A model generated the notes under the pieces. That model saw only the letters and a list, made by a program, of their open reading frames with translations, did no database searches and was not told the origin of the DNA. A stretch of 64,000 nucleotides of DNA, taken from contig JAHBTX010000003.1 in the NCBI GenBank assembly GCA_019638395.1, positions 310,001 through 374,000 of the forward strand, in the 5' to 3' direction. Source of the stretch: Cyclobacteriaceae bacterium (lineage in GTDB: Bacteria; Bacteroidota; Bacteroidia; Cytophagales; Cyclobacteriaceae). Shown one piece after another: positions 5,689 to 31,885 of the stretch. The position numbers and the translations under genes were made by a program. Position 1 is the first letter of the stretch, and each line of letters begins with the position of its first letter.

Positions 5689-5723
5689 ACCTGTTTCCAG
5701 TTATCAGTAACCAGAAACAGGTT
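5688..5723. terminator. Bidirectional hairpin between convergent genes, built on a heptamer array
   Basis: AACCTGTTTC (5688-5697) pairs perfectly with GAAACAGGTT (5714-5723), giving a 10-bp stem between the DUF456 gene and the convergent CHAT gene. The hairpin is also built of 7-bp words (CTGTTTC, CAGTTAT at 5691-5704, then CAGTAAC and CAGAAAC to 5718), like the heptamer arrays elsewhere in the window. Confidence 0.6.
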
Positions 5724-5731
5724 TATTAAGT

Positions 5732-8700
5732 TTACTGCTGCCCAATCATCATAAACGGGGCCCAGTAATAAGGTTCGGGGTATTCTACCCTTAGTTCTTT
5801 TTTGGCATCGATGAAGCTTTGACGCATGTTATTTGTTGTTAACCATTTGCGATAGAAATTTACAATCAGTTTCTGGGTAGCATCATCGTCCACCTTAAAC
5901 ATACTCATAATTAATACTTTCGCACCGGCTACCAGAAACGCGCGTTGCAAACCATAAACACCTTCGCCATTGGCAATTTCGCCCAAGCCGGTTTCGCAAG
6001 CACTCAATACTACAAGATCGGTGTGATCCAGGTTTAAGCTCATAGCTTCGTAAGCAGTAAGAATTCCACTTGAGATATTATAGTTGTATTTGGTTTCGTT
6101 AAAAATATCACCGGCACCACTTAGTAATAGTCCGGTTTTAAGTAAGGGATTGTCGGCCATGGCTGCCTCACTTTCAGTTAACTCATCTAACTCAGATTGT
6201 TCTGTTACCGGTGTATAAAACCCGTGTGTAGCTACGTGTAGAATTTTGGGGCTTGCGAGTAACTTTAATTTATCTTCTGTAGCCAGGCTTTCTACATATT
6301 CTTCTGTACTATAGCTTCCTTGCTTCAACAAGCGTTGTAATTCCGCCACTTCCCGTTCCGTTCCGGGCAGGGCAGGTATATTGCCTCGCGAAGCAGTGAG
6401 GTAAAACTTGGGATTACCAAACATGGTTGCCGTGTTGGATGCAACCGCACGCGATTTTATTTTATTCAGGAATAAGTCTTTGGTGTTGCTCACTAAAACA
6501 ATATTGGCATTGTCGATAATATACCGGCCATCGGGGGTAGGTATTGCCTCCAGGTTAAGTTGGTTATATACGCCATCGGCCGAAAGATAAATGGTGGTGG
6601 CGGTGCCAATTCCTTTCTGTATTGGCTCCCAAAATACCCGGTACGAAAACTGATCTTTTATTTTACCGATTATTGAATTTCGGTAGTACCGGAAAAACCG
6701 GGTTTCCATGCGATGGCCTTCGGGCATGATAATCGCTTTTGGTCGGGCATTATCGTTTTTAATGTAAAGTGCTACATACACTATCGAATCGGTAAAGGTG
6801 TGATCAAAATGCCGGTAACGCACCATTTCAATAGCTACATCATTCTTGTTAATGACTTTTTGAACATCTGTATATTTTATTTTTTTGTTATCGAAACTCT
6901 GACCAAACAACTCCGACTTCTGGCTGATTTCACGCTCCAGTTTTTCGGCTTCGGCTGTCATCAGGTTAATATCATATCCGTTGTCGGCCAACTGTTGCGT
7001 ACTCATGGAAAGCGCAATGGTAAGTTGTTCTTTTTTCTCAATCCACAGGTTGTACGAAGTTTTGAGCGATTCGTCTGTGCTGTTCAAAATACGTTCACGA
7101 ATTTTAATACTGGAGCTTAGCAACAAGGCTTTTGTTAATAATTGGTAATCGTACACTTTGCTACTCAGGTCTTTAAAATCCTCCAGTTGACTAAAGGCAA
7201 GTGTGTTGTAAAATTCAAAGTCGCTTTTAATGGTGTTCCAATACTTAGCTTTTTCGCGTTCGCTCAAAGCCGGAAATATTTGTTTGATATAGACTTCATA
7301 ATTATTCAAAGCTTCTTCTATGTTAGCCTTTGCACGCTTATAATTTTTCTCCATGTAATACACCCTGGCTTGCTTGGAAAGTATCTTTACATACTCGGGG
7401 TGGGTTTTGCTAAAGTAGTCCTCGTAGATTTTCTTAGCCTGCACATAAAACTCTTCTGCACGCTTGTAGTTTTTGGTAGCGTAATATACATCGCCTGTTA
7501 AGGCATAAATATTGGCGGCATTGATGTTGGTTTTGGTGCCGGTTTTGGCCCGCCAGATAGCTTCGGCTTGTGTAAGCACACTAAAGGCTTCTGCATATTT
7601 TTTTTGCGAAATGTAGAGCGATGCAACGTTTTTCAGGATTTCAGCATACTGTGGGTTTTGATTGCCCAGCTTGCCGAGCATGATGTCGCGAGCTTCAAAA
7701 AGCAACTTTTCAATTTCAGCAGGTTTTTCCCCGCCTTTATGAAACTTAGTCATACCTAATAGCGACAAAGCTTTGGCAACTTCAATATGGTTGCGGCCAA
7801 ATTGTTTTTGTAAGCTGGCTATCGCTTTTTGTAACATGATTTCGGCATTATCAAAATCGCCAATAGCATAATCAATGTCTGCTAAAAGTTTTTGGGTAGG
7901 TGCTGTTTTGGTAGATAGTTCTCCGTAAACAGCGGTTGCGATTTTGTTAGCACGCTGTGCTACTTTTTCAGCTTCGGTGTAATCTCCTTTTGCAAGTAGT
8001 AGTCTTCCTCTGTCAACCAATGGATCAATTAAGCGAACTGAATTGGTGCCATAAAGTTTTTCCGATTCAGTAATTAGATCGTTTAATATACTTTCTGTTT
8101 GGGAGTAGCGTCCCAATTGAATTAGAAGTGTAGATAATTCACGGGCGGTGCTAAGTTCGTCAAGGCCCGAAAGTTTATCGGCTTTTTTTATAATTTTTCT
8201 GGATCGGTCTAAGTTAGCTTCGGCTTCATCAAAAAGTCCTTTAACTCCGTAAAGGGTAGCCTGTGTTTCAATGGCATTAACCATTTGAACTTTTTTATCA
8301 TCGTTTTTTCTAAGCTTTAATACTGCTATACTTTTATCGAGATTTTCTTCTGCTTTTTCGTATTGTCCTAACTTTATCTGCAGCTTGGCTATTTTGGTCA
8401 ACTCATCTGCAAATTCGTAGTCTTCGTTATCAAATTTTTTCTGTGCTGTGTATCCTGCTTTTTGCAGAATCTGGTCTGCATCGGCATACCGATCGGTTAG
8501 TTCATACAGCACGGCCATGTGGTTGAGAATATCCAGGTGATCTTTGTGGGCCGGTCCGATTTCTTTGGAAACTATTTTAAGATAGCTTTCATCGTAGATT
8601 TTAGTAGCTTCACTTATTTTATTGGTATTGTCGAGGTAAAAATTGGCGAGTTGCAATCTTGCCAAATGGGTTTCGGGTGCTTCTGTGCCAAACAAGCTGG

Positions 8701-9949
8701 TTTTTATTTCAATAATATCATTCAGGTATTTTTCTGCATTAATGTAGTTTTTCTTATACAGTGCTAAGCCGAATAAAAACTCGGTTACATTGGCAGTTAC
8801 AATATTGTTGCGTGGAAGCGAGACCGTGTTGTTGATAAGATTATTTGCTTGTGTTTCCAGGTTACGGGTACGGTCTTTATCCAGTTTTGCATCAAATTCC
8901 AAGGCTTTAAGCCGAACATTATAAATACTTTTTGATTCATAGCTTTTGGCAATCATCTTTTCGTACTCCAGTTTGGTATTGAGGTATTTGGCAGAGCTTC
9001 CGCTTTTCTGAAGTTCGCGCAGGTAGTTCTCGTAAATCGAAACAGCAAGGTAATGGCTGGGGCTATGTTTTATTTTCAAATTGTTCAGGGAGGTACTAAA
9101 GTCAACATCCTTACGCAAACTTTTACCAAGCCCGTGCATAAGGTAATGGTTGGCAATTATAAATTGATTGCGGATGTATTCAATGTTAGATTGCCCCAGG
9201 TTTTTTTTGAGGTAAACCGTATTTAAATCAAGCACCGAATCGGCAGCATTGTTTTTACCCATAGAGCTAAGTGCCCAGCCCAACAATGATCGCAGGTATC
9301 CATACTTCTCATACCGCTCATTCAATTCTTCCTCCGAAAGTTTCCGACTCTTCAAATTGCCTTTATCATCTACAAACGTTTCTTGTTTAACTGCGCGGCT
9401 GGCATAAAAACGTTCTTGCTCATTTAATATCTCAATGGCTTGTGTATAATAACCCTGGCCGGTTAGTGTTTCGGCTAATGCAAGTTCGTAACGCCCTTTG
9501 GTAATATCCTTCATAAAATCGCCACCTTCCAGAATTTGTTTGGCTTGATCCAGATATTCCCGTGCTATACGATACGAGCCATTCATGTTATGCAATTCAG
9601 CCGCTTCAATCAATATCAAACCATACGTTTGGCTGTTTTCCAGATTAATTGTTTTGCTACTGATAACAGCTTGTTGCACGTTGCTTTCAAACTCTTGTAT
9701 ATAACCTGAAGCTAAGTTGTATTTCGCCAGGCGCATAAAATAGGTTGGGGTATAAACATTTTGCGGCCCCAATTTCTTGAAGGCTTTCTTTTTAAACTTG
9801 TTTAAGCCTGAAATAGCTTTGCTGTAGTTTCCGGTTGTATAAGAGGCCTCCGCTTTGTTTAATAACTTATCGTACTTGGCCTGCGCTACAACCAGTGCAG
9901 GACTAACCCACAAAAGCAAAACCAAAACTTTTCCCATTATTCGTTTCAT
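5732..9949 (-). CDS. Secreted TPR-repeat protein with C-terminal CHAT caspase-like domain
   Basis: The 1405-residue protein has a Sec signal peptide (hydrophobic core VLVLLLWVSPALVV, cleavage likely after AQA). About 900 residues of tetratricopeptide-type helical repeats follow, then a CHAT domain (about 1080-1400). Both expected catalytic residues are present: histidine in HVATHG (about H1242) and cysteine in SACETG (about C1318). CHAT domains are caspase/separase-fold proteases, and many act as effectors activated by partners. The signal peptide places this one in the periplasm or on the surface. There is no T9SS sorting domain and no partner gene beside it. Its substrate is unknown. Confidence 0.88.
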   Translation of the reverse strand: MKRIMGKVLVLLLWVSPALVVAQAKYDKLLNKAEASYTTGNYSKAISGLNKFKKKAFKKLGPQNVYTPTYFMRLAKYNLASGYIQEFESNVQQAVISSKTINLENSQTYGLILIEAAELHNMNGSYRIAREYLDQAKQILEGGDFMKDITKGRYELALAETLTGQGYYTQAIEILNEQERFYASRAVKQETFVDDKGNLKSRKLSEEELNERYEKYGYLRSLLGWALSSMGKNNAADSVLDLNTVYLKKNLGQSNIEYIRNQFIIANHYLMHGLGKSLRKDVDFSTSLNNLKIKHSPSHYLAVSIYENYLRELQKSGSSAKYLNTKLEYEKMIAKSYESKSIYNVRLKALEFDAKLDKDRTRNLETQANNLINNTVSLPRNNIVTANVTEFLFGLALYKKNYINAEKYLNDIIEIKTSLFGTEAPETHLARLQLANFYLDNTNKISEATKIYDESYLKIVSKEIGPAHKDHLDILNHMAVLYELTDRYADADQILQKAGYTAQKKFDNEDYEFADELTKIAKLQIKLGQYEKAEENLDKSIAVLKLRKNDDKKVQMVNAIETQATLYGVKGLFDEAEANLDRSRKIIKKADKLSGLDELSTARELSTLLIQLGRYSQTESILNDLITESEKLYGTNSVRLIDPLVDRGRLLLAKGDYTEAEKVAQRANKIATAVYGELSTKTAPTQKLLADIDYAIGDFDNAEIMLQKAIASLQKQFGRNHIEVAKALSLLGMTKFHKGGEKPAEIEKLLFEARDIMLGKLGNQNPQYAEILKNVASLYISQKKYAEAFSVLTQAEAIWRAKTGTKTNINAANIYALTGDVYYATKNYKRAEEFYVQAKKIYEDYFSKTHPEYVKILSKQARVYYMEKNYKRAKANIEEALNNYEVYIKQIFPALSEREKAKYWNTIKSDFEFYNTLAFSQLEDFKDLSSKVYDYQLLTKALLLSSSIKIRERILNSTDESLKTSYNLWIEKKEQLTIALSMSTQQLADNGYDINLMTAEAEKLEREISQKSELFGQSFDNKKIKYTDVQKVINKNDVAIEMVRYRHFDHTFTDSIVYVALYIKNDNARPKAIIMPEGHRMETRFFRYYRNSIIGKIKDQFSYRVFWEPIQKGIGTATTIYLSADGVYNQLNLEAIPTPDGRYIIDNANIVLVSNTKDLFLNKIKSRAVASNTATMFGNPKFYLTASRGNIPALPGTEREVAELQRLLKQGSYSTEEYVESLATEDKLKLLASPKILHVATHGFYTPVTEQSELDELTESEAAMADNPLLKTGLLLSGAGDIFNETKYNYNISSGILTAYEAMSLNLDHTDLVVLSACETGLGEIANGEGVYGLQRAFLVAGAKVLIMSMFKVDDDATQKLIVNFYRKWLTTNNMRQSFIDAKKELRVEYPEPYYWAPFMMIGQQ

Positions 9950-10103
9950 TGGCTTTCTGTTTACATTGGTTTTTAGATTGCTATCTCCTGGTTCTTTTGC
10001 GATAGGAGTTCAATCGGAAGTTTAATTTTCAGAAATTAAAATTACGAATTCTTTTGGCTGTTGCTACTTAAATAAGAGCTCCTTAATGAAGGTGACCCAA
10101 GTT

Positions 10104-12227
10104 CTATCTTCCTGATAATAAAGTATTCAGGATTTCGCGGGCCGATTCGGCTACAGGCGTGCCGGGCCCGAATATGCCCGCTACCCCGGCTTTTCTTAAA
10201 AATTCGTAATCGCCCGAAGGTATAACACCGCCTGCAACTACTTTAATATCGGGGCGCCCCAGCGTTTTCAAGGTTTCAATGAGTTGCGGAACCAACGTTT
10301 TATGGCCTGCAGCCAGGCTGCTGGCACCAATCACATGCACATCGTTTTCAGTTGCTTGTTTAGCAACTTCTTGTGGAGTCTGAAATAAGGGCCCTATGTC
10401 CACATCAAACCCTAAATCGGCAAAACCGGTTGCTATTACTTTCGCACCGCGATCGTGGCCATCTTGCCCCATTTTGGCAATAAGTATGCGTGGCCTGCGC
10501 CCATCCAGTTCAGCAAACTGATCGGATAGCTTTCGCACTTCAGCAACTATTTTTTGATCTTTCATTGCACTTGAATAAACGCCTGATACTGTTTGCACGC
10601 TGGCTGTATAGCGTCCGAATGCTTTTTCCATCGCCATCGAGATTTCACCCAACGTGGCTCGTTGCCTTGCTGCAACAATCGCAAGTTCTAATAAATTACC
10701 ATTACCGGATGTTGCAGCTTGTTGTAAAGCATGCAAAGCAGTTTGCACTGCTTCTGCGTTACGCTTGGCCTTTAAGGTTTTTAGTTTTTCAATTTGTTCT
10801 TGCCGAACAGCTGTATTATCCACTTCCAGAATTTCAAAATCGGGTTGTGAAGTTGTTTGAAAACGATTTACACCCACAATAACTTCTTCGCCCGAATCAA
10901 TACGCGCCTGCCGTGCGGCTGCAGCTTCTTCAATGCGTAATTTCGGAATGCCACTTTCGATGGCGCGTGTCATACCGCCTAATATTTCAACTTCATCGAG
11001 TAGTGTTGATGCGGTTTGTATAAGTTGGTCTGTAAGGTATTCTACATAGTATGATCCACCCAACGGATCAACCACCTGTGTTATACCGGTTTCATTTTGC
11101 AGATACAATTGGGTGTTGCGTGCAATGCGGGCCGAGAAATCGGTGGGTAAGGCAATGGCTTCGTCCAACGAGTTGGTGTGTAATGACTGCGTTCCACCCA
11201 GCACTGCAGCTAATGCTTCGATGGTAGTGCGCGTTACATTGTTGTAAGGATCTTGTGCGGTTAAACTCCAGCCCGATGTTTGACAATGCGTGCGCAAGGC
11301 CATCGATTTTTCATTTTGAGGATTAAACTGCTTCACAATCTTTGCCCACAATACGCGTGCAGCCCGCATCTTGGCAACCTCCATAAAAAAGTTCATGCCA
11401 ATGCCCCAGAAAAAAGAGAGGCGTGGTGCAAAATCATCAATGGCAATACCCGCATTTAATCCCGCCCGGATGTATTCTAATCCATCAGCTAACGTATAGG
11501 CTAATTCAAGATGCGCAGGCGCGCCTGCTTCGTGCATGTGATAACCACTAATACTGATGCTGTTAAACTTTGGCATGTGGCGCGAGCAATACGAAAAAAT
11601 ATCGGCTACAATGCGCATAGATGCAGCCGGTGGATAGATGTATGTATTGCGCACCATAAATTCTTTCAGAATATCGTTCTGAATAGTGCCGGTTAGTTGC
11701 TGTGGCTTTATTCCCTGCTCTTCGGCCGCTACAATATAAAATGCCATAATCGGAATAACGGCTCCGTTCATCGTCATACTCACCGACATTTTATCGAGTG
11801 GTATCTCATCGAAAAGTGTTTTCATATCCAACACGGAATCGATAGCCACACCGGCTTTGCCTACATCGCCTGCTACACGCGGATGATCGGAATCATAACC
11901 GCGATGGGTGGCCAGATCAAATGCCACGGATAATCCTTTTTGCCCGGCTGCAAGATTGCGCCTGTAAAATGCGTTTGATTCTTGTGCAGTAGAAAACCCT
12001 GCATATTGCCGGATGGTCCAAGGCCTAACGGTGTACATGGTGGCATATGGACCACGCAGAAAAGGCGGCACGCCTGCATCGTATGCAAGCCATGCATTAG
12101 CTTCTATATCCGATTGCGTATATATAGGTTTGATTTGAATTTTTTCGGGTGAAGTCCACGCAGCGGGTTTGATTGTATTCTCAATCTGAGCAGTGTTTAA
12201 TTTTACTTTTGAGAAATCGGGTCTCAT
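10104..12227 (-). CDS. Methylmalonyl-CoA mutase large subunit
   Basis: The protein of about 707 residues has an N-terminal TIM barrel for acyl-CoA (for example [18 protein letters not shown] and [20 protein letters not shown] stretches) and a C-terminal B12-binding domain with DGHDRG, where H591 is the lower cobalt ligand. It interconverts succinyl-CoA and methylmalonyl-CoA with adenosylcobalamin. The ATG at 12225-12227 overlaps the TGA of the small-subunit gene as ATGA, so I choose it over an upstream start that would overlap by 34 bp. No cobalamin riboswitch is visible upstream of the pair. Confidence 0.95.
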
Positions 12228-13300
12228 GCTTTTACAGTGGTTAAAAACTGTTGCCACGATTTTTCAACGAGCTGCATAATGAGTGAATCGAGGTAATATG
12301 AACCTGCAGTAGGGTCAGCCACTTTTGCAAGGTGCGATTCTTCCCGCAACACAATTGAAACAAGCCTGGCGGCACGGTTGCCGGGTTCAGATGTTGATTC
12401 GGGTTGCACGGTTAAGTAATTGCAGCCACCTGTAATGGCAGCCAATGCAGCTGTGGTTGATTTAATCAGGTTGCCATGCGGTTGAAATGAATCTTTGATC
12501 CACGGTGCAGATACAGCATGAAGCTGAGTTGAACCCGTAACTCCGTAAGCATTTAAAATGTTATGCCACAGTATTCGTAATGCTTTTAGTTTGGCAATTG
12601 AAAGAAAAAAGTCTGCATTAACTGAGCAATAAAAACCAATTTGATTTGCAACAACCTGTGCAGAGAGTCCACGATCAGTAAATTTATCCAACAAATTAGC
12701 TCCGGCATGTAACACGCTTACTAATTCATCAATCGGGTTTTCGTAAGGGTGGCTGTAGATCCCACAAGTAGTAAAGCCCGATGCGCTTTCGCTTAAAAAT
12801 GCATGTGCTGAATCTTTATAAAAAATACAACCAGTTATCGCTTTATCGCCAATAAACTGAAGATATCGTTCGGCTTCTGCTTCGCAACCAGGTTCCAGTA
12901 GCAAGGATACAGCACAATGTTCTACTGCAATATCGGCCAAAAGTGTTCTAAAATTTATACCGCTTCGGTTAACTACAAATAAAATTCCATCGGCACCGGT
13001 ATTGAGATAGTGCAATGCTTCGGCATTAGTTTTTTTCTCGTCCACAATAGTTACCAGAGCCATATTCTGCCAGGCTCGGGCACCAAAAATTTTTGAATCG
13101 GATGCGGGAAGTGTAAAGCCTAACTGATTTTTATCTGATTTTTTGTAATAAGGTTCAATGCTTAACCCGTGTTTGCGAATCAACAGTTTTTCGAATGGAT
13201 TGGCGCCATTCAACTCCTGGGTGGCCGCTTCTGCCCATGCGTGTTCACCGGGTGTTCGAAAATGAATTTCTAAGTTAGTGCGCTGTGTTGGCTTAACCAT
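12224..13300 (-). CDS. Methylmalonyl-CoA mutase small subunit
   Basis: The 358-residue protein resembles the mutase barrel of the large subunit (PYYKKSDKN near the start; a late segment [17 protein letters not shown] aligned with [14 protein letters not shown] of the large subunit) but ends before any B12-binding domain. It lacks the DxHxxG motif. It is the non-catalytic partner of the heterodimer, translationally coupled to the large-subunit gene through an ATGA overlap. It is shorter than many small subunits, which retain a degenerate B12 domain. That shorter form is common in Bacteroidota. Confidence 0.9.
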
Positions 13301-13503
13301 TGAATCTGATTAAAATTCACGGTTTCAAGTTGAGGTATAGTTGTGATTAAAACAATTTTTTTCTGAATTTCAAGAGTAGAATGACAAAAAAAATATTGAA
13401 AAAAGCCAGGCTGGAATTAATTTTTTGTTCTTTAATTTTTTTACACCTTTGTCTCCCTTCTAAAAAAAAATTAGGGAAAAGTCATCAAACCGCTTGCTAA
13501 TAA

Positions 13504-14931: not shown

Positions 14932-14936
14932 TCTGC

Positions 14937-16370: not shown

Positions 16371-16493
16371 AGCCTTTCAGAATTTCATTTTAAAACGAAT
16401 CAGGTACTTGAGATGTTTTTCAATTCGGTAAAGTTTGTCAATCCTTAGACAAAAATTATCCCAAACCCCGTAAACCGGAAGGTTTGTCAGTTG

Positions 16494-16524: not shown

Positions 16525-16530
16525 TAGTCT

Positions 16531-18033
16531 ATGGGGATTCGTGCTTTGCTCGCCAGGCCTTTTGCAAGTTACATTGCCGGCCAAACCAAAAAATGGTCGA
16601 TGCGACCAGGTTATTACCAGACACAAACACTTGAGCAACTGGTTTTTGCGGCCCGACCTACACAATTCGGGCACGATCATGGTTTTGAGGCAATTAAAAC
16701 CTATGATGATTTTAAGAAGCAAGTACCCATTCGCGATTACGAGGAACTGAAGCCCTACATTGAAAAAGTATTGAAGGGCCAACCCGATGTGTTGTGGCCA
16801 GGCAAGCCTGCTTACTTTGCCAAAACTTCGGGCACCACCTCGGGTACCAAATATATTCCCATCTCCAAGGAATCAGCACCCGGTCATTTCATTAGTGCGC
16901 GCAATGCAACTTTAAGTTACGTGCACGAAACCGGTAATGCTTCGTTTCTGGATGGTAGTCTTATTTTCCTTTCTGGTAGCCCCGAGTTAGATGAAATAGC
17001 TGGTATTAAAACGGGAAGACTTTCGGGCATCAGCAACCACATGGTGCCCGGTTTTTTACGAACCAATCAGAAACCAAGCTATGCTACCAATTGCATTGAA
17101 GACTGGGAAGAAAAATTAGAGAAGATCATTGACGAAACGCTTTGCGCCAACATGACGCTGATTTCGGGCATACCCCCGTGGGCACAAATGTATTTCGATC
17201 GGATTGTGGCGCGCACCGGCAAGAAGGTTAAAGATGTGTTTCCCAACTTCTCGGTGTTTGTATATGGCGGTGTAAACTTTGAGCCGTATCGCGCCAAGCT
17301 ATTCGATACTATTGGAAAAAAAATTGATTCGATTGAAACCTACCCGGCATCGGAAGGTTTTATTGCATACCAGGATTCGCAACATGCAGATGGCCTGCTC
17401 ATGCTGCTTAACAACGGAATTTTTTATGAGTTTATTCCGGCCGATGAATACTTTAACGAAACCCCACGCAGGCTTTCCATTGAAGAAGTTGAGTTGGGAA
17501 AAAATTATGCATTGATTATTAATAGCAATGCCGGCCTGTGGGGTTATTCTATTGGCGATATGGTAAAATTTGTTTCGAAAGATCCATATCGGTTGGTGGT
17601 GTCCGGAAGAATAAAACATTTTATATCGGCCTTTGGCGAGCACGTAATTGGTGAAGAAGTTGAAAAGGCTATGAAGTTTACCATGCAAAAGTTTTCGGAA
17701 GTAGAATTGGTAGAGTTTACCGTGGCACCCCATGTAGCACCAACCGAAGGCATGCCTCACCACGAGTGGTTAATTGAGTTTGCAATTCCACCAAAAGATT
17801 TAGCGGTATTTGCTTTGGAGTTAGATAACCAATTGCGTGCGTTGAATGTTTATTACGATGATCTGATTACAGGAAATATTTTGCGAACACTTAAAATTAC
17901 TCCGCTTAAGCGAAATGCATTTATCGAATATATGAAATCGCAAGGAAAGCTGGGTGGACAAAATAAAGTGCCGCGGTTGAGTAATGATAGAAAGATTGCG
18001 GATGAGATTGGTCTGTTGAAGTTTGATTTATGA
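16531..18033 (+). CDS. GH3 family protein (acyl-adenylate-forming enzyme)
   Basis: The 500-residue protein resembles plant GH3 acyl-acid amido synthetases: a P-loop-like AKTSGTTSGTKYIP segment (about 105-118), a YGGVNFEPYR segment, ETYPASEGFIAYQ (about 270-282), and the C-terminal lysine-containing GKLGGQNKVPR (about 472-482). GH3 enzymes adenylate a carboxylic acid and transfer it to an amine, often an amino acid. The bacterial substrates are unknown. A diverged paralogue lies at 51089-52621 in this window. The final codons overlap the first unit of a heptamer array. Confidence 0.88.
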   Translation: MGIRALLARPFASYIAGQTKKWSMRPGYYQTQTLEQLVFAARPTQFGHDHGFEAIKTYDDFKKQVPIRDYEELKPYIEKVLKGQPDVLWPGKPAYFAKTSGTTSGTKYIPISKESAPGHFISARNATLSYVHETGNASFLDGSLIFLSGSPELDEIAGIKTGRLSGISNHMVPGFLRTNQKPSYATNCIEDWEEKLEKIIDETLCANMTLISGIPPWAQMYFDRIVARTGKKVKDVFPNFSVFVYGGVNFEPYRAKLFDTIGKKIDSIETYPASEGFIAYQDSQHADGLLMLLNNGIFYEFIPADEYFNETPRRLSIEEVELGKNYALIINSNAGLWGYSIGDMVKFVSKDPYRLVVSGRIKHFISAFGEHVIGEEVEKAMKFTMQKFSEVELVEFTVAPHVAPTEGMPHHEWLIEFAIPPKDLAVFALELDNQLRALNVYYDDLITGNILRTLKITPLKRNAFIEYMKSQGKLGGQNKVPRLSNDRKIADEIGLLKFDL

Positions 18034-18065
18034 TTAATGATTTTTGATCAGTGATTTTAGACTTT
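18024..18065 (+). repeat. Left inverted heptamer array flanking the four-helix-bundle gene
   Basis: Six consecutive 7-bp units start at 18024, 18031, 18038, 18045, 18052 and 18059. Four read TGATTnn, one TGATCAG and the last AGACTTT. The array begins in the last codons of the GH3 gene. Its reverse complement (AAAATCA-like words) resembles the array on the other side of the small gene at 18435-18477. Confidence 0.6.
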
Positions 18066-18078: not shown

Positions 18079-18429
18079 ATGACGAACAAAGAACTTGAAA
18101 GCAGATTGATTGATTTTTCAGTTTTGATAATTAGACTGATAAATGAACTTCCCGAAGATCGTGTTGTGAATCATCTTACTGGTCAGCTTTTGAGATATAC
18201 AACTTCACCTGCGTTGAATTATGGTGAAGCTTTGGGTGCAGAGTCAAAAAAAGATTTTGTTCACAAACTTGGGATAGTGTTGAAAGAACTTCGGGAGTCG
18301 TATAATTGCCTGAGAATACTTTCCGGATCAGGTTACCTGCAGGCCGAACATTCCACATTAAAAGAATGTAATGAGTTGATGTCAATCTTTGTGAAGTCAA
18401 TTGAAACAACCAAACGTAATATGGAGTAG
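18079..18429 (+). CDS. Four-helix-bundle protein (23S rRNA intervening-sequence/S23 type)
   Basis: The 116-residue protein is all helical and fits the TIGR02436/PF05635-like family: an N-terminal LIDFSVLIIRLINELP helix, a middle with LTGQLLRYTTSPALNYGEA, then KLGIVLKELRESYNCLRIL. Relatives are encoded in 23S rRNA intervening sequences or stand alone, and the Avd protein of diversity-generating retroelements shares the fold. Here the gene stands between a GH3 gene and dxr and is bracketed by inverted heptamer arrays, so it looks like a discrete inserted unit. Function is unknown; RNA or nucleic-acid binding is only a guess. Confidence 0.85.
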   Translation: MTNKELESRLIDFSVLIIRLINELPEDRVVNHLTGQLLRYTTSPALNYGEALGAESKKDFVHKLGIVLKELRESYNCLRILSGSGYLQAEHSTLKECNELMSIFVKSIETTKRNME

Positions 18430-18434: not shown

Positions 18435-18477
18435 CAAATCAACAATCCCTAAATCTAAACTCACTAATCACAAGTCA
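18435..18477 (-). repeat. Right inverted heptamer array between the four-helix-bundle gene and dxr
   Basis: The stretch consists of about six short AC-rich words of the nnnAATC type, for example AACAATC and ACTAATC, with mostly 7-bp spacing and one 8-bp step. It is a degenerate inverted counterpart of the array at 18024-18065. It runs up to the probable TTG start of dxr. Confidence 0.5.
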
Positions 18478-18478
18478 A

Positions 18479-21006: not shown

Positions 21007-21060
21007 GCAATTAAATTGAATGACTCACTGCATAGTATTTTTGAGATGAGCTATAACAAA

Positions 21061-21093: not shown

Positions 21094-21112
21094 TGACTTC
21101 AGAAACTTTGTT

Positions 21113-21547: not shown

Positions 21548-21600
21548 AGATAAAAAATTTAGTCAAAGAATATTGCACTCATATTGTCAAGTTGTTAAAT

Positions 21601-23479: not shown

Positions 23480-23665
23480 GTGGGTTAAAAACAGGGGTTG
23501 AGTTGTCTTTCACATGACAAATGTCGCCACTTTGCTTAACCAAAAAGTTATGTTCGTATTACTAACGGATTAATTGAGACAACCGGATTCAGGAAGTAGC
23601 AGCAGGTGAATGATTTAACTAACTCGTTTGCTAAACTTTTGTGGTCGGAGTGATTAAAAGAGGTG

Positions 23666-25645: not shown

Positions 25646-25777
25646 GGCTAATCTGTTTAAAAATCGAATAATTTTAACTCATAACCAAAAACGCTGGCAT
25701 AGCGATTGACTCATTAGCGTTCGATCAAAAAATAATTGGAGACACCCTTTTTTTGTGTCAAATTGGCACTTCATACT

Positions 25778-28234
25778 ATGTTTAAATCCCTTGCAATAAC
25801 ACCTATGGTTCAGGAAGATTCTGATGAAATGATTCAGTTGATAAACCCTGAGCAGGAATCGGATCTAAAGCCTGAAGATCTTCCGGAAGAGCTTTCGATA
25901 CTACCAATCAAGAATACTGTTTTGTTTCCAGGTGTGGTTATACCCATCACGGTAACGCGTCAAAAATCTATTCGCCTAATTAAGAAAGCGTATCAGGGCA
26001 ATCGCATTATTGGTGTAATCGCACAAAAAAATAAACAAGCCGAAGAACCCGGAATGGAAGATTTATATCGGTTTGGTACGGTAGCGCGCATCATCAAAAT
26101 GCTGGTTTTGCCCGATGGTAATACTACCATTATCATTCAAGGTAAAAACCGGTTTCAGATTCGCGAGTTTGTACAAGACGAACCGTTTATGACGGCCCGT
26201 ATCGATTTACAGACCGAGCCTGCACTTGATCTGGAAAGCAAAGAAGTAAAAGCCTTAGTACAATCGTTAAAAGATGCGGCAACCAAAATTTTAAGACTCA
26301 ATCCGGAAATTCCACAAGAGGCACAAGTGGCGTTGGATAACATACAAAGTACGGGCTTTCTCATACACTTCCTCTCATCAAACCTGAATGTAGATGTAGC
26401 CGAGAAACAGAAAATTCTGGAAACAAACAATATAATCGATCGTGGTACTTTGCTGTTGCAATACATGTTGAAGGAAATTCAGATGTTGGAGATCAAACAC
26501 GAAATCCAGAAAAAAGTACATACCGATATTGATCAGCAACAACGCGATTATTTTTTACGCCAGCAAATACGGGTGTTACAAGATGAGTTGGGTTTTGATG
26601 GACCCGATAAAGAAATTGAAAAACTGCGCAAACGCGGAGCAGAAAAAAAATGGCCCAAGGCTGCTGCCGATCATTTCAATAAAGAATTGGATAAGCTACA
26701 GCGTGTAAACCCACAGGCACCGGAATTTCCCGTTACCATGAACTACGTGGAGTTTATGCTCGACTTACCGTGGCAGGAATATACTACCGATGACTTTGAC
26801 CTGAAGCGAGCTCGAAAAATTTTAGACAAAGATCATTTTGGTTTAGAGAAAGTGAAGAACCGGATATTGGAATACCTGGCTGTGCTTAAGTTAAAACAGG
26901 ACATGAAGGGGCCGATACTTTGTTTGTATGGTCCACCCGGTGTTGGTAAAACTTCGTTGGGTAAATCCATTGCCAAATCGTTGCAGCGAAATTACATCCG
27001 CATGTCGTTGGGCGGTGTGCATGATGAGGCCGAGATTCGCGGGCATCGTAAAACCTACATTGGTGCAATGCCCGGAAAAATTTTGCAAAACATCAAGAAA
27101 GCAAAATCTTCCAACCCGGTTTTTATTTTGGACGAGATTGATAAAGTGCGCTCCGATTTTCGGGGCGATCCTTCATCGGCCTTGTTGGAAGTGTTAGATC
27201 CGGAACAGAACAATGCTTTTGGGGATAACTACCTGGAAGTGGAGTACGACTTATCGAAAGTGTTGTTTGTGGCTACGGCTAATTCGTTAGATACTATTCA
27301 TCCAGCATTACGCGATCGGATGGAGATTATTGAATTAACAGGCTATACCGTTGAAGAAAAACTTCAGATCGCTATAAAACATCTTGTACCCAAACAATTG
27401 ACCGAACACGGGTTGAAAGCAAAAGATGCTAAGTTTAGCAAAGAAGCACTGCTGAAAATAATTGAAGCCTACACCCGCGAATCGGGCGTGCGTAACTTAG
27501 AACGAAAAATTGGTTCGGTAGTGCGCAGCATAGCCAAATCGGTAGCAATGGAGGAAGAATTTGAGCAAGACATAACACCTGCTTACGTTGTAAAAGTATT
27601 AGGCGCGGAAATTTTTGAGGAAGAACTTTATCAGGGCAACGAAATAGCCGGGGTGGTAACGGGTTTGGCGTGGACGCAGGTAGGTGGCGATATTCTTTTT
27701 GTAGAATCAAGTCTTAGTCGCGGTAAAGGTCAGCTAACTATCTCTGGCCAGTTGGGCGAGGTGATGAAAGAATCGGCAATGGCCGCACTTTCCTATCTCA
27801 AATCAAATGCCGCGACATTTGGTATTGATCATCGGATGTTTCAGCAATACGATTTACATATTCACGTACCGGCAGGTGCTGTACCAAAAGACGGGCCTTC
27901 GGCAGGCATTACCATGCTTACCTCGCTGGCTTCAATTTTTACGCAGCGCAAAGTGAAAGATAAAGTAGCGATGACCGGTGAAATAACGTTGCGCGGAAAA
28001 GTTTTGCCGGTGGGTGGGATCAAAGAAAAGATACTCGCAGCCAAACGTAGCGGAATAAAGGAGATTATCTTAAGTGAAAAGAACAAACGCGATATTCTTG
28101 AAATTGAGAAGACTTACATTAAAGGCCTTACGTTTCATTATGTAACTTCGGTAGAAGAAGTTTTGAAAATCGCTTTGCTGAAAGATAAAGTAGCCAAGCC
28201 GGTAGAGTTTGTGTTGCAGGAGGTGAAATCTTGA
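25778..28234 (+). CDS. lon: ATP-dependent protease Lon
   Basis: The protein of about 818 residues has the N-terminal substrate-binding domain (LPIKNTVLFPGVVIPI), a coiled middle, an AAA+ module with Walker A GPPGVGKTS (about 385-393), and a C-terminal protease domain with the catalytic serine in DGPSAG (about 707) and lysine in GGIKEK (about 749). It degrades misfolded and regulatory proteins in the cytoplasm. I chose the ATG at 25778 over an upstream TTG at 25736 because the extra 14 residues match nothing in the family. A near-palindrome TGTCAA-A-TTGGCA lies just upstream at 25756-25768. Confidence 0.96.
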   Translation: MFKSLAITPMVQEDSDEMIQLINPEQESDLKPEDLPEELSILPIKNTVLFPGVVIPITVTRQKSIRLIKKAYQGNRIIGVIAQKNKQAEEPGMEDLYRFGTVARIIKMLVLPDGNTTIIIQGKNRFQIREFVQDEPFMTARIDLQTEPALDLESKEVKALVQSLKDAATKILRLNPEIPQEAQVALDNIQSTGFLIHFLSSNLNVDVAEKQKILETNNIIDRGTLLLQYMLKEIQMLEIKHEIQKKVHTDIDQQQRDYFLRQQIRVLQDELGFDGPDKEIEKLRKRGAEKKWPKAAADHFNKELDKLQRVNPQAPEFPVTMNYVEFMLDLPWQEYTTDDFDLKRARKILDKDHFGLEKVKNRILEYLAVLKLKQDMKGPILCLYGPPGVGKTSLGKSIAKSLQRNYIRMSLGGVHDEAEIRGHRKTYIGAMPGKILQNIKKAKSSNPVFILDEIDKVRSDFRGDPSSALLEVLDPEQNNAFGDNYLEVEYDLSKVLFVATANSLDTIHPALRDRMEIIELTGYTVEEKLQIAIKHLVPKQLTEHGLKAKDAKFSKEALLKIIEAYTRESGVRNLERKIGSVVRSIAKSVAMEEEFEQDITPAYVVKVLGAEIFEEELYQGNEIAGVVTGLAWTQVGGDILFVESSLSRGKGQLTISGQLGEVMKESAMAALSYLKSNAATFGIDHRMFQQYDLHIHVPAGAVPKDGPSAGITMLTSLASIFTQRKVKDKVAMTGEITLRGKVLPVGGIKEKILAAKRSGIKEIILSEKNKRDILEIEKTYIKGLTFHYVTSVEEVLKIALLKDKVAKPVEFVLQEVKS

Positions 28235-28235
28235 T

Positions 28236-28392
28236 AAGTTGCTGGTTGCTGGCTTCTGGTCGCTCGTATAGAGTTATCCAATAATTGAATAAGACAGCCA
28301 AAAGCGAGTGAAAGTATCAACAACAGACAACACTTAAACAATATAACATAATCTACAAGCAACCAGTAACAAGCAACCAGCCACTATTAACA
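28236..28392. repeat. Inverted pair of heptamer arrays filling the lon-hslU gap
   Basis: From 28236 to 28277 the sequence reads as 7-bp words of the TGGTTGC type. From 28316 to 28392 eleven successive 7-bp words of the AGCAACC or AGTAACA type follow in the complementary sense. About 38 bp of non-periodic sequence lies between, with no ORF. The right arm ends two bases before the hslU ATG. The two arms could pair into a long imperfect stem in the transcript. Confidence 0.6.
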
Positions 28393-28393
28393 A

Positions 28394-29782
28394 ATGAATT
28401 CAACCTATCTCACTCCTCAACAAATCGTTAAAGAACTCGACAAGTATATTGTAGGGCAATACGAAGCTAAACGCAATGTGGCTATTGCCCTGCGTAATCG
28501 CTGGCGTAGAATGCATGTAAAGTCCGAGATGCGAAGCGAGATTGTTCCCAATAATATTTTGATGATCGGTGCAACGGGTGTAGGTAAAACCGAGATTGCC
28601 CGCAGGCTGGCAAAAATTGCGGATGCACCGTTTGTGAAAGTGGAGGCTTCCAAGTTTACAGAAGTAGGGTATGTAGGTCGCGATGTAGAAAGTATGGTGC
28701 GCGATTTAGTAGAGCAATCGGTAAACATGGTAAAGGCGCGCAAAAAAGAAGAGGTGAAAGAAAAAGCAGCGCACGCGGTGGAAGAAATTATTTTGGATGC
28801 ACTCATTCCACCCATGCGCTCCAAACCCACTGGTTTTGCGGTTACAACCGAAGAAAACGGAAGCGAACCAACCACCGATGTAGAATTGAATGAGCGCACC
28901 CGTAACCTCTTTCGCGAAAAGATTAAAAATGGCGAGTTGGAAGATCGCAAGATTGAAATCAACATCAAACAAAGTGGTAACCCGGGCGTGGGCATGATTG
29001 GTGCCGGTGTTATGGACGAAGTTTCGATGATGAACCTGCAGGACATGCTAAGTGGAATGATGCCCAAGAAACCACGCAAGCGAAAAGTGAGTGTAGCCGA
29101 AGCCCGCAGAATTTTATTGGAAGAAGAAGCAGCTAAGCTCATTGATATGGAAGAAGTAAAAGAAGAAGCCATTCGCAGGGCGGAAGATGCAGGAATAATT
29201 TTTATTGATGAGATTGATAAGATTGCTACCGGTGCTTCCAAAAAAGGTGGCCCCGATGTAAGTCGCGAAGGTGTGCAACGCGATTTGTTACCCATTGTAG
29301 AAGGAAGTACGGTTAATACGAAGTATGGTGTTATTAAAACCGATCATGTTTTGTTTGTGGCTGCAGGCGCGTTTCATATTTCCAAACCCTCCGATCTTAT
29401 TCCGGAATTACAGGGTCGTTTCCCAATTCGCGTAGAGTTAACCAATCTTACCAAAGAAGACTTTGTGCGGATTTTAAAAGAACCCAAAAATGCTTTAACC
29501 CGCCAATACCAGGCATTGTTTGAAGCAGAAGGAGTAAGTGTATTTTTTGATAACGAAGCAGTGGATGAAATTGCCAAAACGGCTTTCGAAATAAATGCAG
29601 AGATTGAAAACATTGGTGCACGCAGGCTGCACACTGTAATGAGTAAACTATTGAATGAATTTTTGTTTGATGTGCCCGATAAAATTGCAGCTAACACGCA
29701 GCTACAGATTACCCGCCAACTCGTGCAGGAAAAGTTAAGTGGGTTGGTAAAAAATAAAGATTTAAGCGAGTACATTTTATAA
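28394..29782 (+). CDS. hslU: HslU, ATPase subunit of the HslUV protease
   Basis: The 462-residue protein begins LTPQQIVKELDKYIVGQ, has Walker A GATGVGKTE (about 59-67), the charged I-domain insertion (about 100-250), Walker B FIDEIDKIA, and the conserved C-terminal IENIGARRLHTVMSKLL and ending SEYIL. HslU unfolds substrates for the HslV peptidase. The usual partner hslV is not adjacent and is absent from the window; it must be elsewhere if the complex is functional. Four bases separate it from the next gene. Confidence 0.95.
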   Translation: MNSTYLTPQQIVKELDKYIVGQYEAKRNVAIALRNRWRRMHVKSEMRSEIVPNNILMIGATGVGKTEIARRLAKIADAPFVKVEASKFTEVGYVGRDVESMVRDLVEQSVNMVKARKKEEVKEKAAHAVEEIILDALIPPMRSKPTGFAVTTEENGSEPTTDVELNERTRNLFREKIKNGELEDRKIEINIKQSGNPGVGMIGAGVMDEVSMMNLQDMLSGMMPKKPRKRKVSVAEARRILLEEEAAKLIDMEEVKEEAIRRAEDAGIIFIDEIDKIATGASKKGGPDVSREGVQRDLLPIVEGSTVNTKYGVIKTDHVLFVAAGAFHISKPSDLIPELQGRFPIRVELTNLTKEDFVRILKEPKNALTRQYQALFEAEGVSVFFDNEAVDEIAKTAFEINAEIENIGARRLHTVMSKLLNEFLFDVPDKIAANTQLQITRQLVQEKLSGLVKNKDLSEYIL

Positions 29783-29786
29783 AAGC

Positions 29787-30806
29787 ATGCGCCTGGTTGT
29801 ACTGCTGTGCTTACTTTCAATAAAGGTGATGGCGCAAAGCGAGGCCGATTCGCTGCGGAGTAACTACGTGCAGCGCTTTCCTGATAATTTTTTTTTATGG
29901 CCTGTAATTAAGCAGCGCAGCCTTTTTTTTGATATCAGTTCACGAACCGACCGGTCTAAAGTATTGAACTACCGCCCTAACAATTCGTTTGCAGTGGGCA
30001 TGGGGTTTTATGTTTTTGAAGTGGCCGTTGAATTAGCCACCGCTATTCCGTTAAAAGAAAAAAGCCGCGCCACGTATGGCGAATCGGACGTGCGCGATTT
30101 ACATGCTAACTTCTTGGGCAAAAACTGGGGTGGCGATGTTTACAACCAAAAGTACACAGGTTTTTACATAGCCGATCCAAACCGACTGGTAACTACCGAT
30201 GCTGATTTTACAAAGCGACCTGATATTGAAATGACTAACACCGGTGTAAACGGAATTTATATTGTAAACCACGAAAAGTTTTCGTTGCGATCGGCCTACA
30301 ATTTTTCCGAACGCCAGTTAAAAAGCGGTGGATCGTTTGTAGTTACCGGCACATTGAATAATGTTCGGCTTCGCTCTGACTCAACCATTTTAGGTAACCG
30401 GTACCGGGATTTTTTTCCTGTTGATGGCGCCTTTAATGAAATGCGCTATACAACACTTGGTTTGGCACCGGGCTATTCGTTCAGTTTAGTGTATCGATCT
30501 TTCTTTTTAAATGCATCGCTGGCATTAGGCCCCGCGCATCATTGGATTTATTATAAACCTGCCGGCCGACCAGAACGGTATGATATATCCATAAATACGT
30601 ATGCTGATATCCGGCTGGCTATTGGCTATAACAGCGATCGGCTTTTTGCGGGCATGAGTTACGTTACCCAATCGCGCGATATCCGGTTTGATGATATCCG
30701 ATTTACCAGTAACAGTTCGGTATTTAAAATGCTGGTTGGTTATCGTTTCCGCGAAGTTGGTATTTTAAAAAAACGAGCAATAGATCTGGTGCCACTGGAT
30801 TTTTGA
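29787..30806 (+). CDS. DUF4421 family outer-membrane-type protein
   Basis: The 339-residue protein has a signal peptide (LVVLLCLLSIKVMAQ) and then alternating hydrophobic and aromatic strands typical of an outer-membrane barrel. The motifs FFDISSRTD, YRPNNSFAVGMGF and LHANFLGKNWGG near the N-terminus fit DUF4421. The last residues are not a clear barrel-terminal phenylalanine strand, although the protein ends in DF. It starts four bases after hslU. The function is unknown. Confidence 0.8.
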   Translation: MRLVVLLCLLSIKVMAQSEADSLRSNYVQRFPDNFFLWPVIKQRSLFFDISSRTDRSKVLNYRPNNSFAVGMGFYVFEVAVELATAIPLKEKSRATYGESDVRDLHANFLGKNWGGDVYNQKYTGFYIADPNRLVTTDADFTKRPDIEMTNTGVNGIYIVNHEKFSLRSAYNFSERQLKSGGSFVVTGTLNNVRLRSDSTILGNRYRDFFPVDGAFNEMRYTTLGLAPGYSFSLVYRSFFLNASLALGPAHHWIYYKPAGRPERYDISINTYADIRLAIGYNSDRLFAGMSYVTQSRDIRFDDIRFTSNSSVFKMLVGYRFREVGILKKRAIDLVPLDF

Positions 30807-30861
30807 TTAAGTATTATCAGAAATCCTCCAACTCATCTGTTCGGTACACTCCTTCGGGCTT

Positions 30862-30927
30862 GTCGTTCGGTCTGTGTATCCACAGACTAAACTTTCCTTT
30901 TGGTCTGTGTCCCACAGACCGAAAGAC
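30862..30927. repeat. REP-like twin hairpin element
   Basis: Two hairpins of the same palindrome sit in tandem: GTCTGTG-TATC-CACAGAC at 30870-30887 and GGTCTGTG-TCC-CACAGACC at 30902-30920. The outer arms TTCGGTCTGTG (30866-30876) and CACAGACCGAA (30913-30923) also pair perfectly over 11 bp, so the unit can fold in two ways. It lies between two convergent genes and may also terminate transcription. Confidence 0.65.
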
Positions 30928-30944
30928 AATATTACTTGAAAAAC

Positions 30945-31355
30945 TTATTCTTCCTCGCGCATTATTGTGTTACGATGCTTAATGCCCCAGCTTACAATGG
31001 TATTAATTACGCTGCGTAACGTTTTGCCATAAGGCGTAATGGCATAATCAACTGTAATGGGTTTGGTGGGTAAAACAGTACGTTTTACCAAGCGGTTTGC
31101 CTCCAGGTCGTGCAGCTCTTTCGAAAGCATTTTGGCGCCAATTCCGTTTACCATTCGCAATAAATCCATAAAGCGCATGTTGCCTTTAAACATAAGGGCT
31201 GCCAGTATCTGAATTTTCCATTTGCCGCTTAAAATTTCCATTACATCGCGTGCAGCCAAAATCTTTTGATTTTGTTCGCTGCAACTAATTTCAGCATGGT
31301 CTTGTGCTTCGGTGGTTTCTTCAGTTGGTATCAGCGTATCGTGCATAGGATTCAA
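30945..31355 (-). CDS. HxlR-family winged-helix transcriptional regulator
   Basis: The 136-residue protein has the family core VMEILSGKWKIQILAAL, then RFMDLLRMVNGIGAKMLSKELHDLE, the recognition region, and the wing with PITVDYAITPYGKTL. One cysteine, C25, precedes the winged helix; in related thiol- and quinone-sensing HxlR proteins an N-terminal cysteine is the sensor. It is divergent from a DoxX-type gene, with two adjacent palindromes between them, so autoregulation and control of the DoxX gene are likely. Confidence 0.92.
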   Translation of the reverse strand: MNPMHDTLIPTEETTEAQDHAEISCSEQNQKILAARDVMEILSGKWKIQILAALMFKGNMRFMDLLRMVNGIGAKMLSKELHDLEANRLVKRTVLPTKPITVDYAITPYGKTLRSVINTIVSWGIKHRNTIMREEE

Positions 31356-31387
31356 ATTTGATAAATAAACCTAAAAACATCGTCATT

Positions 31388-31423
31388 AGTTTCCTGAAGG
31401 AAACTGGTTTCTAAAAGGAAACC
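31388..31423. promoter_or_regulatory. Double palindromic operator between hxlR-type and doxX-type genes
   Basis: Two dyads abut: AGTTTCCT-GA-AGGAAACT (31388-31405, perfect) and GGTTTC-TAAAAG-GAAACC (31406-31423, perfect). They contain four copies of a GTTTC/GAAAC half site. Their position between the divergent genes makes them the probable binding sites of the HxlR-type regulator. Confidence 0.7.
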
Positions 31424-31480
31424 CATAGCAATTGTAAACTACTCCGGGCCCAGATTTGCAATCTCAAAAAAAAACTGACT

Positions 31481-31834
31481 ATGAAACGAAACAAAATTGT
31501 GTATTGGCTGGCTACCGGTTTGGTGGCTGCCGGTATGGCCATGAGCGGTATTATGTACCTGACCAGCGAGGAGATGAAAAGTAATTTTACAGAAATCGGG
31601 TTTCCCATTTATTTTATGATGATGCTGGGCATAGCCAAATTAGTAGGTGCTATAGCATTGATGGCACCCGTACCGGTTAATGTAAAAGAATGGACGTATG
31701 CGGGCTTTGGATTTACGTTTATTGGCGCAGTGTGGACCCATTTAGCGACACAAACACCGTGGTTTGCACCCGTTGCCTTTCTTTTGGTGTTAATTGTATC
31801 GTATTACTTTTTTAAAAAGACGAGAACAGTATAA
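31481..31834 (+). CDS. DoxX-like small membrane protein
   Basis: The 117-residue protein has four predicted membrane helices (about 8-26, 43-63, 72-90 and 94-112) and fits the DoxX_2 group, with KLVGAIALMAPVP between helices. DoxX-type proteins are linked to quinone or thiol redox homeostasis. Together with the divergent HxlR-type regulator this suggests a small electrophile or oxidant response module; that is inference from context. Confidence 0.85.
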   Translation: MKRNKIVYWLATGLVAAGMAMSGIMYLTSEEMKSNFTEIGFPIYFMMMLGIAKLVGAIALMAPVPVNVKEWTYAGFGFTFIGAVWTHLATQTPWFAPVAFLLVLIVSYYFFKKTRTV

Positions 31835-31842
31835 GTAAGTAA

Positions 31843-31885
31843 GCAGTTGGCAGACAGCAGTAGGCAGCACTTTACTGCCGACTGC
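31843..31885. terminator. Heptamer-built hairpin between convergent doxX-type gene and truA
   Basis: Seven-base words GCAGTTG, GCAGACA (31843-31856), then GCAGTAG and GCAGCAC, are followed by complementary words ending at 31885. GCAGTAGGCAG (31857-31867) pairs with CTGCCGACTGC (31875-31885) with one mismatch. It probably ends transcription from both sides. Confidence 0.55.

Follow-up and report, generated by a model that had tools for sequence, protein, structure and literature searches.

Inverted arrays of seven-base words around PF05635 genes probably mark the ends of small insertion elements

Miniature inverted-repeat transposable elements (MITEs) and REPIN/RAYT systems are small, inverted-repeat, non-autonomous intergenic units, and their ends are a sequence recognised by a transposase. 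The short tandemly repeated repetitive (STRR) sequences of cyanobacteria are heptamers akin to those of Xanthomonas and Nostoc. The functional role of such heptamer repeats "remains to be elucidated" according to the end of the Discussion in PMC4692102, of which part was available. In Coxiella, strains differ by one heptamer in an rRNA element (PMC4990558, available part), and the mobility of rRNA intervening sequences had already been suggested by Ralph & McClelland 1993, as cited there. Here a window of 64,000 nucleotides from a Cyclobacteriaceae bacterium (GenBank assembly GCA_019638395.1, contig JAHBTX010000003.1, positions 310,001 to 374,000 of the forward strand) was analysed, in which a preliminary description had reported degenerate arrays of 7-bp words at four sites. 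One of these, site 2, encloses a gene of the PF05635 family. Arrays of this kind are associated with PF05635 genes in many genomes, are present in some relatives and absent from others at orthologous sites, change by unit steps between close copies, have arms that change in concert and have a heritable period. We consider it probable that they belong to small non-autonomous insertion elements, the PF05635 protein of which binds the phased arms.

Site 2 is made up as follows:

18023 to 18064, + strand: left inverted arm, TGATTNN words with a 7-bp period, overlapping the end of a GH3-family gene (stop at 18033); lag-7 score 20/28
18079 to 18429, + strand: PF05635 gene (23S_rRNA_IVP, 'four helix bundle'), 116 aa, the cargo of the putative element; Pfam E-value 6.1e-12
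18436 to 18478, + strand: right inverted arm, reverse complement of the left word, ending at the dxr gene; lag-7 score 16/28

The lag-7 score is the best count of matches per 28 comparisons, and its p values come from 2000 first-order shuffles of the same stretch (0.002 for the left arm and 0.037 for the right). Inverted pairing of the left arm with the right has a p value of 0.0015 (2000 shuffles). The protein scores 46.1 bits against a curated cut-off of 33.8 and is thus a member of PF05635, and, as in rRNA intervening sequences, terminal inverted repeats stand around an S23p open reading frame (ORF). The element does not lie within a 23S rRNA gene, having the GH3-family gene on one side and dxr on the other, and no Rfam match at the gathering threshold was found in the window. 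Comparison of the gene with its orthologue in genome G017 gave 22, 10 and 62 differences at codon positions 1, 2 and 3 over 116 codons, so that the protein is likely to have been kept functional by purifying selection. The preliminary description presented site 2 as arrays alone; it is one unit, and the overlooked gene between the arms ties the pattern to a named family. On our assessment site 2 is probably a compact insertion element of ~0.46 kb with a PF05635 gene between inverted arrays of 7-bp words.

The association was examined in two sets of loci. Across the window's own genome and its relatives (the genus set), 124 PF05635 matches were found in 26 of 29 genomes. The own genome has five PF05635 genes on four contigs, all five with a lag-7 score of at least 17/28 on at least one flank and, by eye, with arms on both sides; their word types are ATTTCGG, GGTCGAT, TCGGTAA, TTGACAA and TGATTNN. 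For the flank counts a threshold of at least 18/28 was set, and 92 of the 124 matches were used (the 32 left out were lower-scoring, partial or at contig ends), of which one had short flanks. Among the remaining 91 loci a lag-7 array was present on the left at 52, on the right at 56, on both sides at 43 and on either side at 65; the corresponding either-side counts were 14 for lag 8, 7 for lag 9, 6 for lag 12, 8 for lag 15 and 1-3 for the remaining lags, multiples of 7 and 8 aside. The named set consists of the best 80 of 578 confirmed loci in the species collection, picked by protein alone, and covers Bacteroidota, Planctomycetota, Clostridia, Acidobacteria, Cyanobacteria, Chloroflexota, Proteobacteria, candidate phyla and Methanophagales archaea. 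Four of these had short flanks, and the other 76 gave 52 lag-7 arrays on the left, 52 on the right, 46 on both sides and 58 on either, with 14, 9 and 7 at lags 8, 9 and 12 and 0-5 at the remaining lags, again with multiples of 7 and 8 aside. The tandem 7-bp units between genes that define heptameric simple-sequence repeats of the STRR type are thus found at these loci, and the cyanobacterial ones have words such as GGGAACA and GGGTGTA. Control families in the relatives, likewise small and scattered, for which 30 loci each were taken and 4, 3 and 4 dropped for contig-end lengths, reached the threshold at lag 7 at 1/26 (PF13366), 1/27 (GIY-YIG) and 2/26 (ParE) loci, the single GIY-YIG match being a real left array paired with a right-hand run of N. 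The PF13366 controls are not free of arrays, and lag 8 was reached at 4/26.

Several of these loci had features of their own. Several PDDEXK_3 (PF13366) genes, which are of the GxxExxY type, have inverted, irregular CGCAAAG/CGCAGAG arrays in their flanks (ten loci read, e.g. L234, L235, L236, L237 and L252), possibly a sister class of elements, and the PDDEXK_3 gene at L238 has a different inverted array with CAGGATT words. GIY-YIG domains occur as close tandem copies (on C11 and C14 of G005 and on C1 and C2 of G015). Some relatives have two or three PF05635 genes no more than about 5 kb apart (on G017 C36, G001 C5 and G004 C448), and these are insertion hot spots. At L022 and L083 the right array apparently supplies the initial codons of the gene downstream, so that an element end may have been turned into an N-terminal extension.

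Insertion elements are expected to be present or absent as units at orthologous sites, and full, decayed and empty states were found at dxr, lon-hslU and sufB-sufC. A dxr match was obtained in 18 genomes. Upstream of it the full element is present in G000 and G017, a gene remnant with a leftover array in G014 and G002, and a clean short gap in G007, G018 and G015; in the remaining 11 the gene upstream is a different one or the match is partial. The sufB-sufC gap, read at 17 loci, holds a full element in G000, G012, G009 and G010 (locus L092), the gene end and right array in G001, the right arm and a mostly deleted gene in G017, and single arrays in G003, G005 and G029, the others being mostly plain gaps. 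The lon-hslU gap, also read at 17 loci, holds a gene-less hairpin in G000 and G008 and a PF05635 gene in G017; one locus (G003) is unclear, 11 have no array by eye and two have another upstream gene.

Close pairs of full and empty sites were taken from Nostocales plasmids. In Trichormus and Scytonema the element lies between two copies of GTAAT, and three other plasmids that were read have one copy and no element. In plasmid pNsp_a of Nostoc ATCC 53789 it lies between two copies of TTCTA, and pNsp_c has one copy, followed by one extra base. A third case is imperfect, its two flanks reading TAATG and TTATG. A 5-bp duplication is therefore seen in recent insertions, in two clean cases and one imperfect one, and is not proved for the family. 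The preliminary description had argued against a spreading repeat, and this part of it was not supported: the arrays form the ends of an element that comes and goes as a whole, and recent copies stand at three unrelated plasmid sites with one word. A ~180-bp gene-less element with internal hairpins, on Nostoc plasmids, shares its arms with the Trichormus/Nostoc PF05635 element (L402, L404 and L405), so that arms of this type are not confined to a single kind of unit; 33 plasmid records match it at least in part, 18 of them over 80% of its length. Fifteen of 30 plasmid records (H61-H74 and H76) match only 33-60 bp around the Trichormus left arm, at 88-100% identity; these stretches are copies of the arm away from the gene. 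No PF05635 match was found in phage records with one cyanobacterial query.

Another reading makes the PF05635 protein a host or defence factor that has been domesticated, and takes the arrays for regulatory sites to which it binds rather than for ends of mobile DNA. Signs of purifying selection in the window gene and long vertical persistence at shared sites speak for this, as does the PF05635 gene with 8-bp arrays that lies between cas10 and cmr3 in the type III-B CRISPR operon of Picosynechococcus PCC 7003 (L394). However, relatives have empty sites and decayed copies, the neighbouring genes are unrelated, and in PCC 7002 (L407) cas10 adjoins cmr3 and the PF05635 gene is missing, so that the PCC 7003 gene looks, from this comparison of operons, like an insertion and not a CRISPR component. 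We hold domestication to be improbable.

Two close pairs of elements differ in length by whole words. Between the copies of Nostoc C052 and N. edaphicum the single indel lies in the right array and measures exactly 7 bp; between those of Trichormus and Scytonema it lies in the left array and measures exactly 14 bp. Other close copies have no length change in the arms that were read. Orthologues within the genus set were compared in 28 pairs, on both flanks, which gave 286 indels, most of them of 1-3 bp, with 11 of 7 bp, 17 of 6 bp and 12 of 8 bp; a preference for 7-bp steps was looked for in these noisy alignments and none was found. The suggestion in the preliminary description that the arrays are copied in 7-bp steps thus agrees with the close pairs and not with the distant ones.

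Among 155 arrayed elements (genus set, named set and seven plasmid loci) the period is 7 in 131 and 8 in 24, about one in six. With pairs that share a flanking gene left out, the nearest relative of a period-8 element also has period 8 in 12 of the 24, where 3.6 were expected (p 0.002), and with a narrower exclusion in 14 of the 24 (p 0.0005), counts in which the elements are not independent of one another. Whether an element has period 7 or 8 goes with its protein clade. One orthologous gap keeps period 8 in four genomes with the words AAAATGTG, TAATTCGG, AATTTGAA and TTTGATGA, which bears out the earlier statement that the period outlasts the sequence.

These data also bear on plain replication slippage, by which 7 bp would be a favoured unit of the polymerase, arrays would arise anywhere between genes and PF05635 genes would merely tolerate them. 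Heptamer over-representation and a hypothesis of polymerase contacts, as cited in the available part of PMC4692102, are in line with slippage, and so are the 7- and 14-bp indels between close pairs. It does not, however, fit the strong tie to PF05635 compared with the control families, the inverted and matched arms, the gaps of relatives that lack arrays, a period that tracks the protein clade or the distant pairs with no preference for 7-bp indels, and we give slippage on its own little credence.

The two arms of an element resemble each other more than chance pairing would give. An element's own arm pair lay above the 99th percentile of swapped pairs at 40/91 loci of the relatives and 48/76 named loci, and the own arm was the best partner of all at 44/91 and 54/76. 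At 12 of 16 shared gaps the similarity of arms within elements exceeded that across elements (Wilcoxon p 0.0016), these gaps being groups linked by a common flanking gene, one of which joins 14 loci, with members that are not independent. For pairs with protein identities of 80-100%, 70-80% and 50-70% (6, 17 and 74 pairs), within-element similarity was 36.1, 32.6 and 35.3, and cross-element similarity 36.1, 32.4 and 26.5. As the latter falls and the former holds, the arms change together over long times, in a test that assumes orthologous insertions and would be weakened by repeated insertion at hot spots. The later divergence of words that had been proposed is therefore supported, with the addition that at most shared gaps both arms still match as the words drift. 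At the fadB-fadA gap, for example, G005, G012 and G014 have words of the GGCAGT type and G006 has similar ones, and the word of the own genome is TTGACAA.

The arms of the named set, read inward, are rich in G (36%) and poor in C (11.5%), and 65 of them gave a loose heptamer consensus, [TC]AG[TG]G[AG]T, with a score of 3.10, where phase-permuted words reached 2.77 at most. In the genus set 50 arms likewise exceeded their permutations (2.65 compared with 2.51), with a weaker and different consensus. Joint inheritance of word and protein across sites was considered, and the correlation of their similarities is weak (rho 0.06, p 0.16 in the genus set; 0.10, p 0.023 in the named set; 0.15, p 0.003 overall). 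Recent copies are an exception, as at three unrelated plasmid sites proteins 79-83% identical come with one common word.

Matched arms could also be maintained at the RNA level, as in an element like the intervening sequences of 23S rRNA, in which a stem cut by RNase III would make insertions into operons tolerable and RNA pairing would keep the arms alike. In Coxiella the rRNA element combines a 28-bp stem with heptamers and an S23p gene, and RNase III cuts it in vitro (PMC4990558, available part); moreover, both neighbours are co-directional with the PF05635 gene at 75/84 and 49/63 loci with near neighbours. The latter support is weakened by same-strand neighbours being common anyway (165/199 and 176/235). 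Arm mismatches are not biased towards G-U: types that allow G-U pairs and non-wobble transitions stood at 86:80 (p 0.70, 40 elements) and 80:108 (p 0.049, in the opposite direction, 48 elements), and selection on an RNA stem was rejected for this lack of a wobble excess. RNA pairing also accounts for neither the 7-bp period nor the 5-bp duplications, and we judge an RNA-level element to be unlikely.

The other three sites of the window have no PF05635 gene:

28237 to 28268, + strand: site 3 left arm, GTTGCTG words, directly 3' of the lon stop codon; for the site, inverted pairing p 0.003 and lag-7 p 0.001
28269 to 28353, no strand: site 3 interior, 85 bp, in which no gene of its own was seen
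28354 to 28385, + strand: site 3 right arm, AGCAACC words, just 5' of hslU
31837 to 31891, no strand: site 4, gene-less hairpin with GCAGTNG words, between convergent DoxX-like and TruA genes; lag-7 p 0.011, inverted pairing p 0.003
5688 to 5723, no strand: site 1, perfect 10-bp stem with about three CAGNNNN units, between convergent genes; lag-7 p 0.004

Their lag-7 scores are 17/28 (site 1), 20/28 (site 3) and 16/28 (site 4), and none of 300 shuffles matched the inverted pairing at any of the three. Lag 7 has the top score among lags 4-13 at all four sites of the window, its nearest competitor being lag 10 (15 compared with 16 at site 4, 16 compared with 20 at site 3). The period reported in the preliminary description is thus real, standing above shuffled sequence at every site (p 0.001-0.037), and the inverted arms (p 0.0015-0.003) and the differences in word from site to site were likewise confirmed. 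In the window and a 400-kb sample of the same genome, intergenic DNA held 11 lag-7 clusters of at least 18/28 and 1-6 at each of lags 4-6 and 8-15, and coding DNA held seven, with lags 6, 12 and 15 exceeding lag 7. Sites 1 and 4, both short, lie between convergent genes, and the left arm of site 2 overlaps the end of the GH3-family gene.

At site 3 the G017 genome has a 132-codon PF05635 ORF between arms with GTTGCCG/GTTACCA words. Because the words of the window (GTTGCTG), G017 and G008 (GTTACTG) are alike, site 3 is likely a derivative of an element that lost its PF05635 gene; an 18-bp match between its interior and the G017 gene was too weak to count. Site 4, with arms of 17 bp each (31837-31853 and 31875-31891), was also picked up by a hairpin scan and is likely an element remnant, with less certainty than site 3. 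Site 1 may be such a remnant or a terminator, perhaps a plain one, and sites 1 and 4 are the weakest members of the set. A 1405-aa protein with TPR and CHAT domains (5732-9949) adjoins site 1.

All three sites could be ordinary terminators or chance, with site 2 the only one in the PF05635 family. Sites 1 and 4 do lie between convergent genes, and the perfect stem of site 1 is followed directly by T-rich DNA (TTTATT). Site 3, however, lies between co-directional genes, a sister species holds a PF05635 gene there with related words, and hairpins with phased arms recur in the genome sample, which makes this explanation an unlikely one for the three sites together. Twelve gene-less lag-7 hairpins were found in the own genome, compared with 1-6 at other lags, all raw counts; three of the 12 were discounted, two as self-overlapping palindromes and one for want of visible words. 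Elsewhere, three self-overlapping palindromes were found in G026 and no hairpin of any kind in G015 (120 kb each), one convincing hairpin in 40 kb of G022, and 10-20 matches at every lag in the AT-rich G025.

The solved relatives of the protein are 2rld and 2gsc, the latter being XCC0516. The Avd protein of phage BPP-1 (4DWL) is likely homologous to the PF05635 protein 2GSC (PMC10053308, available part). The isoelectric point has a median of 8.9 over 92 PF05635 proteins and is 6.3 for the window protein. Candidate partner enzymes were sought in the genomes. The own genome has three RVT_1 matches, on contigs other than that of the window, and three Y1_Tnp matches. A reverse transcriptase as a general, required partner is unsupported given the PF05635-rich genomes with no RVT_1 match, with the proviso that their insertions could be old, and these genomes do not have the reverse transcriptase of a diversity-generating retroelement (DGR). 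A Y1 transposase, as in REPIN/RAYT, is likewise unsupported as a general partner in view of its absence from five genomes with 3-9 PF05635 matches.

In the mechanism that we favour, the element would code for the PF05635 protein alone, and an enzyme supplied in trans by the host would move it. The protein, a helical bundle related to Avd, would attach to the phased arms in a 7-bp register and draw the two ends together, so that the spacing would be under selection and the letters free. Slippage in 7-bp steps, together with template switching from arm to arm at the DNA level, could then produce new words and keep the arms matched, and loss of the gene would leave the hairpins found elsewhere in the genome.

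Several results weigh against insertion elements of this kind. About a quarter of the loci (26/91 and 18/76) have no array at the threshold, and the indels between distant orthologues are not preferentially multiples of 7. No transposase was seen inside the element, and the search in trans, for RVT_1 and Y1_Tnp, found no mobilising enzyme: RVT_1 had no match in G001, G005, G007, G010, G012, G017 and G027 (5-9 PF05635 matches), nor Y1_Tnp in G007, G009, G014, G017 and G018 (5, 6, 3, 9 and 3). At the TTCTA site the right flank of the C052 copy is TTCTG, two further full/empty pairs are too diverged to read, and 5-bp direct repeats at the estimated ends of older elements are not in excess (13 compared with 10.5 expected, and 6 compared with 7.0). 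The ~180-bp element interrupts the PF05635 gene in L402, and no 5-bp duplication accompanies it at the single insertion for which the borders were read to the base. Three gaps, including that of the window itself (L006/L037), run slightly opposite to concerted drift, and one gap gave zero. Gene-less hairpins, common in the own genome, are rare in five relatives with 5-9 PF05635 genes (six raw hairpins, one of them convincing, in 400 kb), and the comparison with genomes that have no PF05635 was without statistical power.

If the element reading is true, the source of many puzzling 7-base repeats in bacteria would be accounted for, and inherited spacing with free sequence would be an unusual recognition system for mobile DNA. 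The link with PF05635 offers a testable origin for intergenic heptamers in bacteria and a function for a widespread family of uncharacterised role. PF05635 genes inside operons, such as that of type III-B CRISPR, may be insertions and not working parts of the operon. More speculatively, there may be a pan-prokaryotic class of transposable elements with ends set by their period, in which PF05635 measures steps of 7 bp (8 bp in some clades) and drives the joint rewriting of the arms, so that each element has a word of its own that drifts freely. The rRNA intervening sequences, as well as the heptamer repeats known from cyanobacteria, Xanthomonas and Bacteroidota, would then all come from this one system. 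This wider proposal is tentative, and we think it more doubtful than the element itself.

A full-text literature search, to which subscription papers were mostly beyond reach, yielded no paper recognised as linking PF05635 to heptamer arrays outside rRNA. Within that scope it also gave no earlier account of words that drift while the arms stay matched, of a period that is heritable or of the 5-bp duplications. The closest systems are the 23S rRNA intervening sequences of Coxiella and Leptospira, in which S23p is the same family by name, terminal inverted repeats are present, heptamers precede the ORF and strains are one unit apart (PMC4990558, available part). Those lie inside rRNA genes, whereas the present elements lie between protein genes with arrays on both sides; their words are specific to the element and drift, some derivatives have no gene, and a 5-bp duplication is seen in two clean cases. 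The heptameric repeats of Xanthomonas and Nostoc are also G-rich and intergenic, and many are paired in convergent (inverted) orientation, with 70 such pairs counted in Xcc and 75 in Xac, but in the available part of PMC4692102 they are presented as simple repeats of unexplained origin and no link to PF05635 is made. The TAACTGA repeats of Beggiatoaceae are likewise intergenic heptamers, also found in Cyanobacteria and Bacteroidetes; they differ in having one fixed word, in direct orientation, and no linked protein family in the available part of PMC4679880. The Avd protein of DGRs shares a likely homology with PF05635 (PMC10053308, available part), whereas several PF05635-rich genomes have no RVT_1 match. 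Finally, MITEs and REPIN/RAYT units have ends defined by their sequence, whereas the present elements have ends in which the period is conserved and the word is free.

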